A stretch of 45,983 nt of DNA. Source: Nitrospirota bacterium. Its GTDB lineage: Bacteria > Nitrospirota > Thermodesulfovibrionia > Thermodesulfovibrionales > Magnetobacteriaceae. The position numbers and the translations under genes are program-made. The notes under the pieces were generated by a model that was not told where the DNA came from, made no database searches, and saw only the letters and a program-made list of their open reading frames with translations. This document shows, piece after piece, positions 35,506 to 45,628 of the stretch. The stretch is from NCBI GenBank assembly GCA_015233015.1, contig JADFYO010000024.1:1-45983 (forward strand), written 5' to 3'. The first letter of the stretch is position 1. Every line of letters begins with the position of its first letter.

Positions 35506-35712
35506 CTTACGCAGTGCGACCGGTGCGACGCTCCAACGATACTAACTCCTCTCGCCCCAAATTCTACTACAATGGACATACAATAGAGGCGATGATTTAT
35601 ACTATCACTGTTTAGAGAGATCTGTCAAGAGTTATTTTGATATGAGGTGGGTGGACGGTGTATTTTCTTTGCAGAACTGAACATACGCATGAAATAATAG
35701 TTGTTATCACAT

Positions 35713-35767
35713 TTAACCTAAATATAATCAATTCGTCATACTCCTGTAACAGCCTATCGTTTAATAT
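35713..35767 (+). promoter_or_regulatory. Pentamer array plus -10 box (GH1 gene)
   Basis: TTAAC (35713), ATAAT (35724), GTCAT (35735) and GTAAC (35746) repeat at 11-bp steps. TAATAT at 35762-35767 begins 11 bp after the last unit. The last two units read CGTCAT-ACTC-CTGTAAC, close to the two halves of a PhoB box (CTGTCAT). No -35 box is needed in this architecture. The upstream part of the gap 35439-35773 holds no gene. Confidence 0.7.
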
Positions 35768-35773
35768 AGAGAA

Positions 35774-37048
35774 TTGCTGAAATCGGAAATAACGCCGGCA
35801 CAGTCAGAACCTTCGAAGGAAGCCTTTCTCTGGGGGGTTGCAACGTCTGCCTTTCAGCTTGAGGGTTCTCCTCATGCAGACTGGTCGTCATGGGACACAA
35901 TACTTAACGAAAAGCCTGAAATAACAAACCATTATGAACTCTACAGGAAAGACCTCACCCTGCTTAACGACCTTGGGGTAAACGCATACCGCTTCTCACT
36001 TGAATGGTCGAGGATACAGCCGCGTGAGCACATGTGGGATGAGCTGGCAATCGCTCATTATGTGGAAATCATAGATATCCTTGAAAAGTACGGAATAGAG
36101 CCTATGCTGACCCTGCATCACTTTACCCATCCCCTCTGGTTTATAAAGAAATATCCCTGGAACGAAGATGAATCTGTGGCAATATTTCTTGCCTATGTGA
36201 AGAAAATAGTTGCCGCGGTAAAAAACGTGAAATACTGGATAACCTTTAACGAACCCTATGTCCTTATCCTTGCGGGCTATTTTGAAGGGTGTATTCCACC
36301 GGCTATGACTAATGCGACGTTAGGGGTAAGGGCACTTGTGAATATTCTCAAGGCACACGCGGGGGCCTATGAGATAATACATGCCGCGTGTCCCGATGCA
36401 AAGGTCAGTGTGGCCCATAATATGGCCGCCCTTGCCCCCTGGAGTAAATGGAACCCAATGGATAAACTCCTCGCACGGTTTGCCAGACACTTCTATAATC
36501 AATCCCTGCTCGATGCCTTTGCCACAGGGTCGTTGAAAGTTAAATTCCCGTTTAAGGAAGAAATGACATTTCCCGTTCCTATAAAAGGAAAACTCGACTT
36601 CTTTGGCGTAAACTACTACACAAGGATACATATGAGGTTTAATCCATTTAAAAAGATGGGCGTTGAGATGAGGCACCTTGACATCGACGGCCACGGCCTT
36701 ACCGGCATGGGGTGGGAGATATATCCACGAGGTCTTGAAAAGGTACTGAAGGCCGCCGCGGCGTTAAACGTTCCTCTGATAATAACCGAAAACGGCATCG
36801 CCACAAAGGACAGCCACGAAAAGATTCGATATATAAAAAAACATATAGACAAAATAGAACACTGTAAAAAAAGGCACTGCCTGGATATAAGGGGCTATTT
36901 CTACTGGTCGCTTATTGACAACTACGAGTGGCTCAACGGCCTCGATGCCCGCTTCGGGCTGTATAGGGTCAATTTCGAGAGCCAGCAGCGTACGCCCACG
37001 GGTGCGGCGACATATTATTCGCATATCATAAAAAACAGAAAATTCTAA
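35774..37048 (+). CDS. Glycoside hydrolase family 1 (beta-glucosidase-like)
   Basis: A 424-residue retaining glycosidase. FLWGVATSAFQLEGSPHADWSSWD is the GH1 N-terminal block; acid/base Glu160 lies in TFNEP and nucleophile Glu339 in IITENGIA. The length is at the lower end for the family (430-480). There is no signal peptide, so it acts in the cytosol on beta-glycosides or phosphorylated ones. An in-frame stop at 35762 means the only candidate starts are TTG 35774 or CTG next to it, at about the predicted transcription start, so translation may be leaderless. Confidence 0.9.
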   Translation: MLKSEITPAQSEPSKEAFLWGVATSAFQLEGSPHADWSSWDTILNEKPEITNHYELYRKDLTLLNDLGVNAYRFSLEWSRIQPREHMWDELAIAHYVEIIDILEKYGIEPMLTLHHFTHPLWFIKKYPWNEDESVAIFLAYVKKIVAAVKNVKYWITFNEPYVLILAGYFEGCIPPAMTNATLGVRALVNILKAHAGAYEIIHAACPDAKVSVAHNMAALAPWSKWNPMDKLLARFARHFYNQSLLDAFATGSLKVKFPFKEEMTFPVPIKGKLDFFGVNYYTRIHMRFNPFKKMGVEMRHLDIDGHGLTGMGWEIYPRGLEKVLKAAAALNVPLIITENGIATKDSHEKIRYIKKHIDKIEHCKKRHCLDIRGYFYWSLIDNYEWLNGLDARFGLYRVNFESQQRTPTGAATYYSHIIKNRKF

Positions 37049-37072: not shown

Positions 37073-37147
37073 TTAACCGTATTGTAATGTTAACTTAATC
37101 AGGCGTAACAGACACGTCATCATACTGTAATATTCATTCCTTATAAT
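37073..37147 (+). promoter_or_regulatory. Six-unit pentamer array plus -10 box (PHP-GT operon)
   Basis: TTAAC 37073, GTAAT 37084, TTAAT 37095, GTAAC 37105, GTCAT 37116 and GTAAT 37127 have steps 11,11,10,11,11. TATAAT at 37142-37147 begins 10 bp after the last unit. The last pair reads CGTCAT-CATA-CTGTAAT, PhoB-box-like. The array lies in the 133-bp gap before the PHP gene. Confidence 0.75.
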
Positions 37148-37181
37148 ACATGCAATATGATTAGCAGTTATCGACACTGAC

Positions 37182-37874
37182 ATGCTGCTGTGTGATTTCC
37201 ATATTCACACAACTTATTCCGACGGCTCAGTGAAGCTGAGGAAGGCAATAGATATTTTCGGACAGGCAGGCTTCGATGCAATAGCAATTACCGACCATGT
37301 GGTAAACGGGGATAATTCCTTCGGCAAACTCGCACATCGCTTTAAGTATTCTGTAACTTCCCATAACTTCAGCCAATATATGTGCCATATAAAGGAAGAG
37401 GCACAGAGGGCTTATGACAAATATGGAATGCTTGTCATTTCCGGCATTGAAATAACGAAAAATCATCTTTCTATCGAGAACTCGGCACACATATTGATTC
37501 TCGATATCAAGGAGTTTATTCCCGCGTGTCTCAGCTATGAAGAGATATTCCTGAGGGCAAAGCAGCAAAACGCCCTGATTGTAGCCTGCCACCCACATTA
37601 CATGACAAGGACATTTGATAGGGACACGCTTTTTCTCTGGAATAACAGGGGAAAATACGCCCGTTATATCGACGCGTGGGAGATTGCCAACCGGGATGAT
37701 ATCTTCAACGTCGTAGGTCTGGAAAAGTATCCATACCTCGCAAACAGCGACTTCCATAAACCGAAACATCTTTTTTCGTGGAAGACGCTTCTGAACTGCG
37801 TCAACGACATAGATTCCATAAAACAATGTATCAGGCATAACAAGGGTGTCGCTGTGACACTATTCAGAAATTAG
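37182..37874 (+). CDS. PHP-domain metal-dependent phosphoesterase
   Basis: A 230-residue cytosolic protein with the PHP fold: motif I DFHIHTTYSDGS, motif II ITDHVVNGD, then GIEIT, ACHPHYM and NSDFHKP, each supplying His/Asp/Glu metal ligands. PHP enzymes hydrolyse phosphate esters with two or three metal ions; the substrate is unknown. The ATG has no strong ribosome binding site. The glycosyltransferase gene follows 11 bases later, so they form one operon behind the pentamer array. Confidence 0.88.
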   Translation: MLLCDFHIHTTYSDGSVKLRKAIDIFGQAGFDAIAITDHVVNGDNSFGKLAHRFKYSVTSHNFSQYMCHIKEEAQRAYDKYGMLVISGIEITKNHLSIENSAHILILDIKEFIPACLSYEEIFLRAKQQNALIVACHPHYMTRTFDRDTLFLWNNRGKYARYIDAWEIANRDDIFNVVGLEKYPYLANSDFHKPKHLFSWKTLLNCVNDIDSIKQCIRHNKGVAVTLFRN

Positions 37875-37885
37875 GAGGTAACGAT

Positions 37886-39076
37886 ATGCCGGTTTTTCTT
37901 GTACTGATAGTAGTTGTAATCGCACTGTATCTGCTTGAGATGCTTGCCGTCAGGTCTTATACGTCCGCCCCGGGGTCAGACATCGTTCCTCATGCCTGTC
38001 CCCCTGTTTCAATCCTTAAACCGCTCAAGGGGCTTGAGGATTGCTTATTCGATAATCTCGAGAGCTTCTGCAATCTGGATTATCCTGTATATGAGATTAT
38101 CTTCACGCTTCAGGACCAGAACGACCCTGCCTATAAAGTGGCGAGGAAAATAAAGGACAAATACCGCTCTAAAGATATTTCCATTATCGTCGAACCTTGT
38201 GACGAGGGGTTGAATCCCAAGGTGAATAATCTGATACCGGCGTATAAAATGGCCCAATACGGCCTTATACTTATAAGCGACAGCAATGTCCGCGTGGAAA
38301 AAGACTATTTGACGGCAATTTCCCGGCATATGGAAGACCCGAATGTCGGGCTTGTAAGCAATTTGATAAGGGGCATAAGCGCAAAGACGTTTGGGGCAGC
38401 CATGGAAAACCTCCACCTTAATTCCTTTGTCGCGGGCAGCGTATGCGTCTTAGATAAATATCTCGATATGCCGTGTGTCGTCGGGAAATCTATGCTCATG
38501 CGAAGCGTTGACCTCGAGGCCATTGGCGGCTTTACCAGCGTTAAGGACTTTCTTGCCGAGGACTATATAATCGGCCAGAGGATTCACGCACTTGGGAAAA
38601 AGGTCGTCCTGTCCAATCATCTCATTAATAATGTTAATGAATACTGGGGAATAGGGCGTTTTATTAACCGCCATACAAGATGGGGGAAGCTGAGGTGGCA
38701 AATCGGAGGCATTAAGTACCTCTCGGAGCTGTTTACTAATGCCGTGTTTATGGCCTTCATTGCGATGCTTATTATGCCGCTCTCTACTGCCACCGTATTG
38801 TTTGCCGCGGCGGTTAGTTCGCTTAAGATTGCTCACGACATATATATCGGAACGAGGCTTCGTTCCGGCCTTTCTCCATTGTTGTATTTGTTGTCCCCGG
38901 TCAAGGATATTATCATAGGGTTTATCTGGTTTGTGCCTATTGTCAGCAACACCGTCAACTGGAGGGGCAACAGATATATCATCGGCGAGCTTTCAGCCCT
39001 TTCGCCAATGCCGGAGACAGGGCTGTGGATATTGATATACAGACTGTTAAGGGCGCCCTTCGATGTGAGCCGTTAA
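37886..39076 (+). CDS. GT21-like membrane glycosyltransferase (ceramide glucosyltransferase/HpnI type)
   Basis: A 396-residue membrane enzyme. An N-terminal membrane segment (1-20) is followed by PVSILKPLKGLEDCLFDNLESF, the typical GT21 start, then D-x-D-like SDSNVR (about 130), LAEDYIIGQ (acid catalytic block) and RHTRWGKLRW, the (Q/R)xxRW motif. Two or three C-terminal membrane helices follow. GT21 enzymes put sugars on lipids such as ceramide, diacylglycerol or hopanoids. GGAGG seven bases before the ATG supports the start. Association with PHP and a Pho-type array suggests a phosphate-sparing glycolipid pathway. Confidence 0.87.
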   Translation: MPVFLVLIVVVIALYLLEMLAVRSYTSAPGSDIVPHACPPVSILKPLKGLEDCLFDNLESFCNLDYPVYEIIFTLQDQNDPAYKVARKIKDKYRSKDISIIVEPCDEGLNPKVNNLIPAYKMAQYGLILISDSNVRVEKDYLTAISRHMEDPNVGLVSNLIRGISAKTFGAAMENLHLNSFVAGSVCVLDKYLDMPCVVGKSMLMRSVDLEAIGGFTSVKDFLAEDYIIGQRIHALGKKVVLSNHLINNVNEYWGIGRFINRHTRWGKLRWQIGGIKYLSELFTNAVFMAFIAMLIMPLSTATVLFAAAVSSLKIAHDIYIGTRLRSGLSPLLYLLSPVKDIIIGFIWFVPIVSNTVNWRGNRYIIGELSALSPMPETGLWILIYRLLRAPFDVSR

Positions 39077-39081
39077 ACAAT

Positions 39082-39157
39082 GTAACGTAATTGTAATGAA
39101 ACTTTAACAATATGTAACAAATCCTTAATGATGTTGTAACATCACGTGAGTTATCAT
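39082..39157 (+). promoter_or_regulatory. Six-unit pentamer array plus -10 box (HMA2/P-ATPase cluster)
   Basis: GTAAC 39082, GTAAT 39093, TTAAC 39104, GTAAC 39114, TTAAT 39125 and GTAAC 39136 have steps 11,11,10,11,11, identical to the array at 37073. TATCAT at 39152-39157 begins 11 bp after the last unit. The predicted start of transcription near 39164 leaves a 35-base leader with AGGAGG before ATG 39199. Confidence 0.78.
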
Positions 39158-39198
39158 ACAATATGGCAGTAGATAAAACTCAGGAGGAGGGCAACCGG

Positions 39199-39570
39199 AT
39201 GGTAGTATATCTCCACAGCGTACCCGGCAGACTACGCATTAAGTCTTCTGTCTTAAAGAGGGACAATGGGAAAAGGGAGCAGGTTGTGATTTTTTTTCAG
39301 GGAGTTGAGGGCGTAAAGTCTGTCAATTCAAATCCTATAACGGGCAGCCTTGCGATAAGTTACTGCACTCACCTGATTGACGCGGAAATCATAATGGAGA
39401 TGCTCGAGAAAATAGGCGGCATTGATTTATCGAAAACAATATCCAATGACGAGTATATTCACAACGCCCTTTCAAAGGTTGGAGGTTTTGCCAGTAAGGT
39501 TCTCTTTGGCAGCGCTATGGATGTGGCCCTGGGGGACTCCGCCCTGTCATTTCTTTCAGTTCTCGTCTAA
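39199..39570 (+). CDS. HMA2-domain protein 1
   Basis: A 123-residue protein. I chose ATG 39199, eight bases after AGGAGGAGG; an ATG at 39163 would coincide with the predicted transcription start. The HMA2-type ferredoxin-like domain spans about residues 1-75, with HSVPGRLRIKS and NPITGSLAISY. It lacks the CxxC metal site of classical HMA domains. The C-terminal part is small and amphipathic (FGSAMDVALGDSALSFLSVLV). First gene of the HMA2-DUF5132-HMA2-ATPase cluster; may present or dock to the ATPase. Confidence 0.75.
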   Translation: MVVYLHSVPGRLRIKSSVLKRDNGKREQVVIFFQGVEGVKSVNSNPITGSLAISYCTHLIDAEIIMEMLEKIGGIDLSKTISNDEYIHNALSKVGGFASKVLFGSAMDVALGDSALSFLSVLV

Positions 39571-39670: not shown

Positions 39671-39934
39671 ATGGATCTATTTAAGGGAAACGCTTTATCC
39701 GGTCTGGCAATAGGAATTGGGGCGGCTGTGCTGTCGCCAGTGTTAATACCAATCCTGGCCTCTGTCGTAAAGCCGTTGACGAAGGCGGCCATAAAGGGCG
39801 GTATAATCGCCTATGGAAGAGGCATAGAGTTGGCTGCCGAAATCGGCGAAGTTGTAGAGGACCTCGTCGTTGAGGCAAAGGCGGAATTGGTTGAGGCCGT
39901 TGCCGACGCTGCCGTTTCCGATAAGGTGGGTTAG
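39671..39934 (+). CDS. DUF5132 family protein
   Basis: An 87-residue protein. Residues 9-30 form a hydrophobic segment (SGLAIGIGAAVLSPVLIPIL), then VVKPLTKAAIKGGIIAYGRGIELAAEIGEVVEDLVVEAKAEL matches the DUF5132 block. Members are found beside HMA2 and P-type ATPase genes, and their role is unknown. GGAGGG precedes the ATG. The next gene begins three bases after its stop. Confidence 0.8.
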   Translation: MDLFKGNALSGLAIGIGAAVLSPVLIPILASVVKPLTKAAIKGGIIAYGRGIELAAEIGEVVEDLVVEAKAELVEAVADAAVSDKVG

Positions 39935-39937
39935 GAT

Positions 39938-40411
39938 ATGGTTGAGTGTATCGTAAGTCATCAATCTCGGGGCAGACTTAGAATAAAGGCGTTGGCAGCC
40001 AAAGGCGACGCGGGGTATTTTGCGAATATTAAGAAGACACTTGCCGAAAATCCTAAGATAAGCGCCGTCGAAGTAAATCCCATCACCGCAAGTGTGTTAA
40101 TCCTGCATAATACGACTAACGAAGAGATTTTAAACTATGCCGGCGAACATGGACTGATACAAGCAGCCGTACCAGCCAATAATGCCCAAAAATCCGATGA
40201 CGTTGCGGCTAAAGTAGCCGAGTTGTTTAAGGCTGTCAACGGCGGCACTGTTGCCGCTACGGGCGGCGGTCTGGATTTGGCAAGGGTTTCCTTTCTCACG
40301 CTGGTGGGCTTCGGGCTATATCAGCTCAGCAGGGGGAATTTTGTAGTGCCGCCGTGGTACACCGCCTTCTGGTATGCTCACGGTATGTTTACCAAATATC
40401 TGACAAAGTAA
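39938..40411 (+). CDS. HMA2-domain membrane protein 2
   Basis: A 157-residue protein. The N-terminal HMA2 domain (HQSRGRLRIKA, NPITASVLILHN) is homologous to the one at 39199 and again lacks CxxC. A linker leads to one C-terminal membrane segment (LARVSFLTLVGFGLYQLSRG) and a tail with aromatic residues. It could anchor in the membrane next to the ATPase. AAGGTGG lies upstream in the previous gene. Confidence 0.75.
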   Translation: MVECIVSHQSRGRLRIKALAAKGDAGYFANIKKTLAENPKISAVEVNPITASVLILHNTTNEEILNYAGEHGLIQAAVPANNAQKSDDVAAKVAELFKAVNGGTVAATGGGLDLARVSFLTLVGFGLYQLSRGNFVVPPWYTAFWYAHGMFTKYLTK

Positions 40412-40545
40412 ATTTTGGTTTACTGGTGGATAAATGCCTTTGGGGGGTATTGTCGCTGATAAAACAGTATGGAATAATAACCATATAAATAATATATATT
40501 GTGCATGTAATCATTCGTATTATATTTATTTAGACTGGAGGAAGT

Positions 40546-43500
40546 ATGAATGCTGTAATGTCAGAAAATAGTGGGGAAGCCTCCGGTCAGGCCAATTTAA
40601 GTTGTCAGTCCGTAGCCCCGCTGCACGTCAGGGTAAAAGGCAGAGCGCGGTATAAAGTACCCATGCTTTATCGCTCTGATTCTTTGAAAGAGCACATCTT
40701 CGCAAATCTTACCAGAGAACCCGGCATTACCAGCGTTGCCATAAATACCCTTACGTCAACCGTTCTGGTTAACTATGATGACTATAACACTCCAGAGGCG
40801 GTCTCCTCCTATCTGCAGACCATAGTCAGCGATTATAAACAGCCCGCGAATGCCGGTGAGACTCATTATTTAAGGCCATTTAGCGTCAGAGATACTGTCA
40901 GAGGGCTTATTAAACATAAGACGACGCTAACGAGCACCGCCAAACCGCCACCAGCGTCAAAAACCATCGAAATCAAAAAACCTCCCACAGACAATTCCCT
41001 GAACAAAAACCAGGAAGTCATTCCGTGGCATAACACGAAAAAGGACCAGGTTATATCATTCTTTAGCACCTCGCCGTCAACGGGATTAAGCGGTAAGTTC
41101 GCGGCGGAGTTGTTACACGCATATGGGCGCAATATACTTCCCAGCTCGGCCGTGCGCTCGAAATGGGCGATGTTCTTTGGGCAGTTCACCTCGTTTCCAG
41201 TGCTCTTGTTGGGTGGGGCGGCGGTGTTGTCGGCTGCCACCGGCGGGATTGCCGATGGCATTGTAATATTAAGCGTGGTGTTGATTAACGCCGTAATAGG
41301 CTTTGTTACTGAGAGCTATGCCGAAAAGACCATTAATTCCCTTAAAAAGCTCGTCCGGCCTTATACATTTGTGTTAAGAGACGGGAAGGTAATAGAGATA
41401 AGCGTCGAGGAGGTAGTGCCGGGAGACATTCTTATGTTAAAGCCGGGCACTTATATCCCCGCCGACGCAAGGGTTATCGAGTCGCAGATGTTGAGCGTGG
41501 ATGAGTCCGCCCTGACGGGTGAGAGTATGCCGGTTATCAAGCAATCGAGGCATCTTAAAAACAAGGACATCCCGCTTGCCGACAGGATTAATATGATATA
41601 CATGGGGACACTGGTAACGGGGGGCCAGGCATTGGCTGTTGTGACGGCAACCGGCGCATACACCGAAATGGGGCAGATACAAACCCTTGTCGGCGAGGCC
41701 GTCCAGCCAGATACCCCTATGGAGATACAATTAGAGCGCATTGGCGATAAGCTCGTTCTTATATGTGCCGGTGTGTGCGGCCTCGTGTTTGTTACAGGCC
41801 TCGTGCGCGGTTTTGGACTATTAGAGATGGTGAAGTCCTCTATATCGCTTGCGGTTGCGGCAATACCGGAGGGGCTGCCGGCGATGGCAACGACGGTGCT
41901 GGCCATTGGCATAAACAAGATGAAGCAGCATAATGTACTTATCCGCCGCCTCGACGCGGTAGAAACCCTCGGCTCTGTTCAGACGATTTGCCTCGATAAG
42001 ACCGGCACGCTGACCTTAAACAGGATGACTGCGGTGTGCGTTGTGACAGTGACTAATAATATAACAATATTATCTGGACTTCTGTCCGGGGAAGACGGGC
42101 AGCGGCTGACCACCCTGTCCGCGGAGCTTGAGAGATTAATCCACGTAGTAACGCTCTGCAGCGAGACGTTAATAACTAAAGGGGAGACTGGCTATGTCCT
42201 CGATGGCTCCTCAACTGAAAACGCCCTCGTTCATATTGCTATAGGCACGGGGATGGATGTCATACAGATGAGGAAGAGTTTTCCCCTTTTAAAAGTAAAA
42301 CATCGTTCAGATGGCAGTAACTACATGATTACGGTACACAGATTTAGTGGAAACGGCGTTTTTGGAGACGCCGGAAGAAGGAGGCTTGTTGCCGTGAAAG
42401 GCTCACCGTCGGAGGTCATGGATTTATGCAAATTTTACCTGAAAGACGGCATTGAATATGAATTTATAAACGGCGAAAGGGTGCAGATTCAAAACGAAAA
42501 CGAGCAATTGGCAGGTAAATCTCTTAGGGTACTGGGTGTGGCGTATAAATTAGCCGGCGATGAGGACACCGAAGACCTGTCCTCAGGGCTGACATGGCTT
42601 GGGCTTGTAGGCATGACAGACCCGATAAAGTCTGAGGCAAAGGGGTTGATCGAGGCGTTTCACAAGGCAGGGATAGCCACAATAATGATAACAGGCGACC
42701 AGGTGCCGACGGCCTATTCAATAGGGAAGGAGCTAAATCTTGGCAGCGGCGATCATATTGAGATACTGGACTCGACCAGCCTGAATGAGTTAAGTCCTGA
42801 GGTATTAACGGCATTGTGTGAAAATATAAACGTCTTTGCCCGCGTAAGCCCTGCCCAAAAACTCCAGATAGTGCGCGCCCTTCAACGGGCGGGAAGGGTT
42901 ACGGCCATGACGGGCGACGGTATAAACGATGGCCCTGCGTTAAAGGCCGCCAATATTGGAATTGCTATGGGGCGCACCGGCACCGATGTATCGCGCGAAA
43001 TCGCCGATATTATACTGGAAGACGACAATCTCGAAACGATGATAATCGCGGTAAGCCATGGCCGGGCGATTTACGCCAATATCAGGAAGTCTGTCCACTA
43101 TCTTCTGTCAACAAATATGAGTGAGATAATGGTCATGCTTATTTCCATCGCGGCCGGGTTTGGACATCCTATCAGCGCTATGCAGCTCCTGTGGATAAAT
43201 CTTATCTCTGACATATTTCCCGGCATTGCCCTGTCTTTAGAGCAGCCGGAGCCGGACATCATGAGCCAGCCCCCCAGAAGTCCCGACGAAGATATAATCG
43301 GGGCGAAGGATTTCAGGCGTATAGCCTTTGAATCGCTGACGATGAGCGCCACATCGCTTGGGGCATATGCCTATGGCATTGCGAGGTACGGTGTTTCGCC
43401 GCGCGCGGGCAATATGGCATTTCTGAGCCTCTCGACCTCCCAGCTCCTGCACGCCATAAGCTGCCGCACGGACAAACACAGCATATTCGATAAGGAGACA

Positions 43501-43716
43501 CTGCCGCCAAATAAATATATGAACATTGCGCTGGGTGGCTCGTTTTTGTTACAATTGCTTGCCATGACAGTGCCGGGGCTTAGAAATCTGTTAAAGATAA
43601 CCCCGATTAATCTCATGGACGCCCTCGTAGCAGGTTCGGCGTCCGTCATTCCTCTGTTGATAAACGAGGCAACAAAAAGACCGGTAAGACATATTCCGGA
43701 GGTGAACACTCTATGA
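40546..43716 (+). CDS. P2-type cation-transporting ATPase with N-terminal HMA2 domain
   Basis: A 1056-residue P-type ATPase. Residues about 20-95 form an HMA2 domain (HVRVKGRARYKV, NTLTSTVLVNY) like those in the two upstream genes. The rest has the cation-ATPase N-domain, actuator TGE (LTGES), TM4 AAIPEGLPA, phosphorylation Asp484 in CLDKTGTLT, and hinge TGDGINDGPAL. PEGLP places it with calcium/magnesium/manganese-type (P2) pumps rather than CPC-type copper/zinc pumps. GGAGG lies four bases before the ATG. Its stop overlaps the MetK-like start (ATGA), so they are coupled. A weak pentamer-like promoter lies at about 40507-40526. Confidence 0.9.
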   Translation: MNAVMSENSGEASGQANLSCQSVAPLHVRVKGRARYKVPMLYRSDSLKEHIFANLTREPGITSVAINTLTSTVLVNYDDYNTPEAVSSYLQTIVSDYKQPANAGETHYLRPFSVRDTVRGLIKHKTTLTSTAKPPPASKTIEIKKPPTDNSLNKNQEVIPWHNTKKDQVISFFSTSPSTGLSGKFAAELLHAYGRNILPSSAVRSKWAMFFGQFTSFPVLLLGGAAVLSAATGGIADGIVILSVVLINAVIGFVTESYAEKTINSLKKLVRPYTFVLRDGKVIEISVEEVVPGDILMLKPGTYIPADARVIESQMLSVDESALTGESMPVIKQSRHLKNKDIPLADRINMIYMGTLVTGGQALAVVTATGAYTEMGQIQTLVGEAVQPDTPMEIQLERIGDKLVLICAGVCGLVFVTGLVRGFGLLEMVKSSISLAVAAIPEGLPAMATTVLAIGINKMKQHNVLIRRLDAVETLGSVQTICLDKTGTLTLNRMTAVCVVTVTNNITILSGLLSGEDGQRLTTLSAELERLIHVVTLCSETLITKGETGYVLDGSSTENALVHIAIGTGMDVIQMRKSFPLLKVKHRSDGSNYMITVHRFSGNGVFGDAGRRRLVAVKGSPSEVMDLCKFYLKDGIEYEFINGERVQIQNENEQLAGKSLRVLGVAYKLAGDEDTEDLSSGLTWLGLVGMTDPIKSEAKGLIEAFHKAGIATIMITGDQVPTAYSIGKELNLGSGDHIEILDSTSLNELSPEVLTALCENINVFARVSPAQKLQIVRALQRAGRVTAMTGDGINDGPALKAANIGIAMGRTGTDVSREIADIILEDDNLETMIIAVSHGRAIYANIRKSVHYLLSTNMSEIMVMLISIAAGFGHPISAMQLLWINLISDIFPGIALSLEQPEPDIMSQPPRSPDEDIIGAKDFRRIAFESLTMSATSLGAYAYGIARYGVSPRAGNMAFLSLSTSQLLHAISCRTDKHSIFDKETLPPNKYMNIALGGSFLLQLLAMTVPGLRNLLKITPINLMDALVAGSASVIPLLINEATKRPVRHIPEVNTL

Positions 43717-44912
43717 ATAATGACTTCATGCTCACATCGGAGTCCGTAACGGCAGGGCATCCCGATAAACTTTGCGACCAGATAAGCGACGCCATTGTTG
43801 ACCATTCTCTGCAGCAGGACCCTAATACGAGAATCACTGCCGAGTGCGCTGTGTCAACATCGATAGTGTTCATAGCGGCGATGTTTCAGTCTAAGGCGGT
43901 CATGGATTTTGCCAATATCGCAAGGAAGGTAATCCACCGGATTGGTTTTAACAAGAAGGCGTTTAACGACAAGACATGCAGCATCATCACAAGCCTCAGG
44001 GAGCTTAAACCCGATAGCTACGGCACATATGACGAGCACACTATGACAGACAGCGAAATGGACGAGATTGCGGTGAAAAACAACGCGACCATATTCGGGT
44101 TCGCCTGCGATCAGACGCCGTCGCTGATACCGCTTCCCATATGGCTGGCCCATAAGATTGCGGCCAAGCTGGCAGGGGCGCATCAGGCGCTGCCCTATCT
44201 TGCCCCCGACGGCAAGGTGCAGGTGGGCGTGGAGTATAAAAACCGCCACCCTTACAGGATACACAGCATAATCTTGCAGGCGTGTCAGGAGACCTCGGAC
44301 GTACCGGCAATTGAGAAACTTAGGGACGATGTCAGACAACTGGTGATAGACGCGGCGTTTGCAGACGAACACATAGGGCTGGATGATAAGACGCGTATCT
44401 TTATAAACCCCGACGGGGCGTTTGTTACAGGCGGCCCGGCGTCGCACTCCGGCCTCACAGGCAGAAAGAAGGCAATGGACACATATGGCGGTTATGCGAG
44501 AAACTCAGACGCCGCCCTAAGCGGCAAGGGGCCGCTCAGGATTGACCGCGTGGGGGCGTATATGGCCCGCTATGCGGCAAAAAACGTGGTAGCCGCCGGT
44601 CTTGCCCATGAGTGCGAAGTGCAGGTGAGTTACTCAATCGGACTTGCCAGACCGGTAAGCATTCAGGTAGATACATACGGGACGGGAAAGATAAAAGACC
44701 AGTGGATTGAAGATATAATAGAGAAGTTGTTCGACTTCAGGCTGCCGGCAATCTTAAAGAAACTCAATCTCAGATACCTGCCTAACAAGGCAAACGGGGG
44801 GATTTTTTATCAGAAACTTGCCGTGTATGGGCACTTTGGCCGTACTGACATGGAAGTTCCGTGGGAGCTTACCGATATGCGCGATAAAATCTTATCTCTC
44901 AGCGGTCAATGA
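43713..44912 (+). CDS. Divergent S-adenosylmethionine synthetase-like protein
   Basis: A 399-residue protein homologous to MetK over its whole length (TSESVTAGHPDK at the N-terminus, GLTGRK, DTYGG, AKNVVAAGLAHECEVQVSYSIGLARPVSIQVDTYGTG). The usual GAGDQG loop is KNNAT here (122-126), the usual GGGAFSGK loop is RNSDAALSGK (263-272), and the normally acidic residue in GP-x-GD-x-G is His245. It may belong to a distinct MetK subfamily with altered activity, or still make SAM. It is translationally coupled to the P-ATPase and TerC genes on both sides. Confidence 0.75.
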   Translation: MNNDFMLTSESVTAGHPDKLCDQISDAIVDHSLQQDPNTRITAECAVSTSIVFIAAMFQSKAVMDFANIARKVIHRIGFNKKAFNDKTCSIITSLRELKPDSYGTYDEHTMTDSEMDEIAVKNNATIFGFACDQTPSLIPLPIWLAHKIAAKLAGAHQALPYLAPDGKVQVGVEYKNRHPYRIHSIILQACQETSDVPAIEKLRDDVRQLVIDAAFADEHIGLDDKTRIFINPDGAFVTGGPASHSGLTGRKKAMDTYGGYARNSDAALSGKGPLRIDRVGAYMARYAAKNVVAAGLAHECEVQVSYSIGLARPVSIQVDTYGTGKIKDQWIEDIIEKLFDFRLPAILKKLNLRYLPNKANGGIFYQKLAVYGHFGRTDMEVPWELTDMRDKILSLSGQ

Positions 44913-45628
44913 CAATGGATTTGACCCTCTTTTATGTTTTTTTAAACGTAATCATAGTGAACCTCTCCCTATCGAGCGATAATGCTATCGTACTTGCGAT
45001 GGCGGTCAAGTCCCTGCATAAAAGAAGCAGAAAAAAGGGGTTGATTATAGGGGCGGCGTGTTCATTTATCATAAATATCATATTGATTTTCTATGTCTCG
45101 GAGCTGCTTCAATTAAAATATGTCAGGTCTATAGGCGGGATAATCATTACCGTGATAGCGCTAAGGCGCTGCATAGAGATATGCGTAGATGAGGCGGAGG
45201 GGGAGCAGTCCACCAGCATTTTTCATGCGATTAAGATAATACTTATCGCGAATTTGACCATGTCATTTGACAACGTGCTGGGGGTTGCGGCGGTGTCAAA
45301 GGGGAATCTATCTCTGTTGATTTTGGGCCTTGCGATAAGCATCCCTATCGTATTCCTTGCAAGCAACGCCTTAGCCGCCCTGCTGGACAGATACCCATTT
45401 ATAATCTATATATCTGCCGCCGTGCTAGGAAAAATAGGGGCAGAGCTGATTTTGACCGACCCCTTTATAGAAGCAATCTTTCAGCCGGATGTACAAGCGG
45501 CATGCGTAATAGAAGTAGTCTATGCCGCGTGCGTAGTAACGGCAGGGGTTTTGATGAGGAAGCGCAGGCTATTAACGTTATCTAAAGCCCAGCCGGAAAG
45601 CGTTGACAGTTCACTTGTGGACGTATAG
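44909..45628 (+). CDS. TerC family membrane protein
   Basis: A 239-residue integral membrane protein with about seven helices. The two family repeats are NLSLSSDNAIVLAMAV and NLTMSFDNVLGVAAVS, whose Asp residues line the transport path. TerC/Alx-type proteins export manganese or calcium and help metallate exported proteins. The ATG overlaps the previous stop (ATGA), so it is the last gene of the P-ATPase operon. It is convergent with the antitoxin gene, overlapping 18 bases. Confidence 0.88.
   Translation: MTMDLTLFYVFLNVIIVNLSLSSDNAIVLAMAVKSLHKRSRKKGLIIGAACSFIINIILIFYVSELLQLKYVRSIGGIIITVIALRRCIEICVDEAEGEQSTSIFHAIKIILIANLTMSFDNVLGVAAVSKGNLSLLILGLAISIPIVFLASNALAALLDRYPFIIYISAAVLGKIGAELILTDPFIEAIFQPDVQAACVIEVVYAACVVTAGVLMRKRRLLTLSKAQPESVDSSLVDV

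Follow-up and report, generated by a model that had tools for sequence, protein, structure and literature searches.

Two promoters in the stretch of DNA analysed here (the window, 45,983 nucleotides) each carry six direct repeats that very probably form an extended Pho box, a predicted operator of the regulator PhoB under phosphate starvation. The gene target of one of these arrays, which looks like a Pho-controlled lipid-remodelling module made of a GH1 glycosidase, a PHP phosphoesterase and a GT21 glycosyltransferase, is possibly new and is of more interest than the operator variant itself. The window is an entire contig (C66) of a 3.78-Mb genome (G000) that is 99% complete. Candidatus Magnetominusculus sp. 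LBB02, which corresponds to the genome G108 of the same genus, has a PHP protein 90% identical to the one encoded here, and on this basis the host is assigned to a species of Candidatus Magnetominusculus (Nitrospirota, order Thermodesulfovibrionales).

Repeat arrays and genes of the window

The features concerned are given below, with -10 boxes assigned from the sequence.

35713..35750, + strand: predicted four-unit Pho box before the GH1 gene (TTAAC, ATAAT, GTCAT, GTAAC; steps 11,11,11)
35762..35767, + strand: probable -10 box TAATAT, 11 bp past the last unit of that box
35774..37048, + strand: GH1 family glycosidase gene (Pfam PF00232, E 1.6e-80)
37073..37131, + strand: predicted six-unit Pho box, steps 11,11,10,11,11; unit starts 37073/84/95/105/116/127
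37142..37147, + strand: -10 box TATAAT, 10-bp gap from the last array unit
37182..37874, + strand: PHP-domain metallo-phosphoesterase gene (Pfam PF02811)
37886..39076, + strand: GT21 (ceramide-glucosyltransferase / HpnI-like) glycosyltransferase gene (Pfam PF13506, E 2e-47)
39082..39140, + strand: predicted six-unit Pho box, steps 11,11,10,11,11; unit starts 39082/93/104/114/125/136
39152..39157, + strand: -10 box TATCAT, 11-bp gap from the last array unit
39163..39570, + strand: gene of an HMA_2 domain protein (Pfam PF19991, E 3e-12), heading the downstream cluster
39671..45628, + strand: remaining cluster genes (DUF5132, second HMA_2, type II P-type ATPase with HMA_2 domain, second MetK, TerC-family)

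Both six-unit arrays follow the consensus (G/T)T(A/C)A(C/T), with 0 mismatches at 37073 and at 39082, and no third six-unit site with four or fewer mismatches was found on either strand of the window. A preliminary description of this DNA had reported six pentamers at steps of 11, 11, 10, 11 and 11 bp at two promoters, ending 10-11 bp before a -10 box. Both statements hold exactly, the distances being 10 bp to TATAAT and 11 bp to TATCAT; its count of two six-unit arrays is likewise correct, but it overlooked the third, four-unit box at 35713-35750. This box is matched by the R1 model described below (35712-35761, E 8.3e-7), and an orthologous box is present in a sister genome (G129). The notion that these are AT-rich repeats arisen by chance has next to no probability and is refuted by the controls. 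Two runs of at least six pentamers at 10- or 11-bp steps occur in the window, none on its other strand and none in 200 Markov-shuffled windows, in which runs reaching four pentamers had a mean of 0.01 per window (n=200). Furthermore, across 176 genomes of the order there are 11 occurrences of the strict six-unit pattern and none of its reversal.

The PHP protein is a close homologue of TM0559 (E 9e-60 against PDB 2ANU), and its residues H7, H9, D14, H39, E90, H103, H137, D190 and H192, which in the PHP fold are the metal ligands, are invariant in 10 orthologues. The GT21 gene follows 11 bp downstream. Its product was not accepted as HpnI, the bacteriohopanetetrol glucosamine glycosyltransferase, since it scores 253 bits against the NCBIfam model (TIGR03472), under the 310-bit cut-off. 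The order of the genes HMA_2, DUF5132, HMA_2, type II P-ATPase, MetK and TerC, together with the ATPase-MetK and MetK-TerC overlaps, suggests that this cluster is cotranscribed. The second MetK (43713-44912), which overlaps both the P-ATPase and the TerC gene, is divergent, scoring 370 bits where the copy on C123 scores 592; MetK adjoins the ATPase in G002, G092 and G057 too.

The motif at phosphate genes and its predicted regulator

A strict four-unit pattern gives 5 overlapping matches in the 3.78-Mb genome, at three places only, and its reversal gives none. Two of these places are the window arrays and the third, C76:33323-33360, is the promoter of a phoB-phoR-pstB-phoU operon. In addition, the promoter of the pstSCA operon (C90) reads TTTAACC GATAACA CTTAATA TGTAACA at steps of 11, 11 and 11 bp, followed after 11 bp by TATAAT. 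The gap to the -10 box is 10-11 bp at the window promoters, at pstS, at phoB and at most orthologues. The check proposed in the preliminary description, whether pst, phoU and phoB genes share the motif, thus has a positive answer, and this common motif with its common -10 geometry supports the cooperative binding by a PhoB/OmpR-family regulator that was predicted there.

PstB and PhoU score above their NCBIfam cut-offs. The phoB gene product falls below the cut-offs of both the YycF and the PhoB (TIGR02154) models and scores slightly higher on the former, so that its identity rests on operon context. It shares its recognition helix, RTVDVHIRRLR, with E. coli PhoB residue for residue. OmpR-family members in general bind tandem direct repeats, and the genome encodes two further full-length ones, KdpE-like (C71) and BaeR-like (C138), either of which might prefer direct repeats and bind the arrays. 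We regard this as very improbable, because the motif precedes phoB-phoR-pstB-phoU and pstSCA both here and in sister genomes, and because both proteins differ in the recognition helix, the E. coli PhoB version being found only in the C76 regulator.

The proximal repeat of PhoB promoters substitutes for the -35 element. When phosphate is scarce, PhoB from the C76 operon would be phosphorylated and bind the 11-bp direct repeats head to tail, the units all facing nearly the same way around the helix. From the promoter-proximal unit, 10-11 bp before the -10 box, it would replace -35 recognition and recruit sigma-70 RNA polymerase. Such an arrangement is in keeping with the head-to-tail binding of 11-nt repeats by PhoB-type effector domains (PMC4415409) and with the E. 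coli Pho box, whose proximal repeat lies about 10 bp from the -10 box (PMC1906773).

The extent of the putative regulon was explored in seven genomes of the genus with R1, a sequence-only covariance model of four units plus a -10 box, trained on 19 PHP promoters of relatives and on pstS and phoB promoters; a position weight matrix was trained on some PHP, pstS and phoB boxes plus the two window arrays. In the window's genome, R1 matches with E < 0.01 lie at GH1, pstS, phoB, C90:2504, PHP and HMA2. They recur at those genes in sister genomes, together with a second pstS and an OlsF-like ornithine-lipid synthase gene. Matches at PHP, pstS and phoB are not independent, because model and matrix were partly trained on such boxes; those at HMA2, GH1, the EAL-domain gene and OlsF are independent, because the R1 training set held only pstS, phoB and PHP sites.

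Several of these sites deserve separate mention. Some 450 bp ahead of an EAL-domain gene stands a box of four or five units (G000:C90:2504-2551, L203; also L182, L186 and L205), which four species of the genus have in common and which suggests that cyclic di-GMP breakdown is under phosphate control. In G037 and G108 there are two boxes at this place, pointing away from each other. The OlsF-like gene has a Pho box in sister species (L193, L199, L212, L215), with five units in G146 and G123. Its product scores 348 bits, under the curated cut-off, and the gene is broken into two frames in G108; no OlsF-like gene was found in the window's genome or in G037. Six-unit arrays with all-11 spacing precede a second pstS-pstC operon (G108:C100:853, L080; G129:C257, L198), and a six-unit-like array with steps of 11, 11, 10, 11 and 11 bp and one weak unit lies at a contig end (G146:C41:130-182, L200), so that the gene it would precede falls outside the contig. 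We did not count C94:5901 and C67:7659, which are loose-pattern matches without the full architecture, nor C7:3150-3192 (L036) in the window's genome. The latter has three or four pentamer-like units, is AT-rich and partly palindromic, has an E of 0.12, points away from the flanking genes and is probably unrelated to Pho boxes.

Conservation and a two-unit module in operator length

Arrays are kept in related genomes, at PHP loci across the order and at HMA2 promoters, as the preliminary description would have them. Upstream of PHP, the array was unequalled by any of 200 shuffles, which preserve base composition only, at 29 of the 30 loci of the order and at 60 of 68 non-Verrucomicrobia loci in named genomes; at seven further loci of the latter group it was equalled by one or two shuffles in 200. 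Four units at steps of 11, 11 and 11 bp are much the most frequent form at PHP loci (50 loci), and four-unit HMA2 promoters occur in other genera of the family (G141, G092, G002). GT21 lies downstream of PHP at nearly all of these PHP loci. GH1 lies upstream at many, and its synteny with PHP-GT21 extends to many Nitrospirota. Twelve more distant PHP homologues, from Verrucomicrobia and one other bacterium, have neither a GT21 nor a GH1 neighbour, and at the Verrucomicrobia homologues no array was detected either. One UBA665 assembly holds near-identical PHP genes on separate contigs (L110 and L166), one with Pho box and GT21 and the other without both.

The 11 strict six-unit arrays comprise ten in the genus (five at PHP, four at HMA2, one at the second pstS in G108) and one in G069. 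Compared with the four-unit PHP promoter of G002, the six-unit PHP promoters of the genus are longer by exactly 21 bp, which lie after unit 2 and before the penultimate unit. At the HMA2 promoter, a difference of 21 bp in that position separates G116 (four units) from G108, G123 and G000 (six), and G037 has a 22-bp version that gives steps of 11,11,11,11,11. At both promoters, therefore, the operator is lengthened or shortened in register by a module of two units, or nearly two turns of DNA. The matched spacing emphasized in the preliminary description is identical at the two window arrays, and sister species retain its 10-bp step at the PHP promoter; it is not invariant, as G037 shows, and the 10-bp step is best regarded as a trait of the 21-bp version and not as a requirement. 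The two extra units would add another PhoB dimer, and we propose that this would alter how tightly or how cooperatively PhoB binds the PHP-GT and HMA2/P-ATPase promoters.

It could be argued that the last four units alone matter and that the additional two are a neutral tandem duplication without regulatory effect, given that four units are the usual state in relatives and that the HMA2 promoter of G116 has four. We consider this unlikely, as the six pentamers are intact in at least four species although the spacers diverge, and as six-unit arrays stand at three unrelated promoters of the genus (PHP, HMA2 and the second pstS). The shared spacing might alternatively reflect the copying of one promoter to the other, and not selection for geometry: the two operons are adjacent in the window's genome, and spacer identity is 0.46 in register against 0.34 in deranged registers. 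However, the operons are on different contigs in G108 and G123, and, although the module is equally placed in both promoters, the spacer similarity is weak and could reflect a base preference of PhoB; such copying is, in our judgement, distinctly unlikely.

Predicted targets and comparison with known systems

Membership of the GT21 family suggests that the glycosyltransferase acts on lipids, and the PHP-GT pair may serve glycolipid synthesis. Other bacteria induce ornithine lipids, which contain no phosphorus, when phosphate is low (PMC12186959); the OlsF-like gene behind a Pho box in sister species would fit phosphate-sparing lipid synthesis. The HMA2/P-ATPase cluster is linked to phosphate by its predicted promoter only. 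As a tentative synthesis, plausible though far from assured, we propose that the GH1, PHP and GT21 genes of Nitrospirota and some neighbouring phyla form a Pho-controlled module for lipid remodelling that has so far gone undescribed, with the PHP phosphoesterase standing in for PlcP, and that the PHP and HMA2/P-ATPase promoters of Ca. Magnetominusculus acquired two further PhoB units as a module of 21/22 bp by which the induction threshold is tuned.

These results provide a predicted Pho regulon and motif for an uncultured magnetotactic lineage and, via one conserved gene, for much of the Thermodesulfovibrionales. The conserved phosphoesterase-glycosyltransferase pair is a candidate phosphate-sparing lipid pathway that may swap membrane phospholipids for sugar lipids. 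The natural series of four-, five- and six-unit predicted PhoB operators, with four and six on orthologous promoters, is useful for testing how operator length sets the induction threshold.

PlcP-Agt operons swap phospholipids for glycolipids and, like the pair described here, place a phosphoesterase gene before a glycosyltransferase gene under Pho-box control (PMC4796936). The conserved PHP and GT21 genes behind a predicted Pho box share this make-up. However, PlcP is annotated as a phospholipase C, whereas the phosphoesterase here is not homologous to PlcP, has a PHP domain and is closest to TM0559; its partner is a GT21 enzyme, with GH1 upstream. Similarly, Sgt1 and Sgt2 of Caulobacter are PhoB-controlled lipid glycosyltransferases, ceramide glycosylation being PhoB-dependent there (PMC6445935), but they are GT4 and not GT21 enzymes.

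As for the operator, the arrays resemble the E. coli Pho box in their 11-nt direct repeats, placed about 10 bp upstream of a -10 box with no need for a -35 element (PMC4415409, PMC1906773). They differ in their core, TGTAAY/TTTAAC instead of CTGTCAT, and in having four to six units where the basic E. coli box has two. The preliminary description could name no described case of a six-unit run, yet one exists: the PhoP operator of Streptomyces coelicolor pitH2, with four core and two accessory 11-nt direct repeat units in a 64-nt footprint (PMC7866108). Because six 11-nt units are already described there, the six-unit operator is a variant of a known operator, with precedent. The two share six units in a row, and cooperative binding has been shown in Streptomyces (PMC7866108). 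Unlike the arrays here, in which all six units match the core, the Streptomyces operator has a GTTCACC core with poorly conserved accessory units, and the passage describing it mentions no 10-bp step (PMC7866108). The SphR boxes of cyanobacteria, made of at least three tandem CTTAACCT, have a nearly identical core and the same 11-bp period (PMC1906773) but are described as three units and belong to another phylum.
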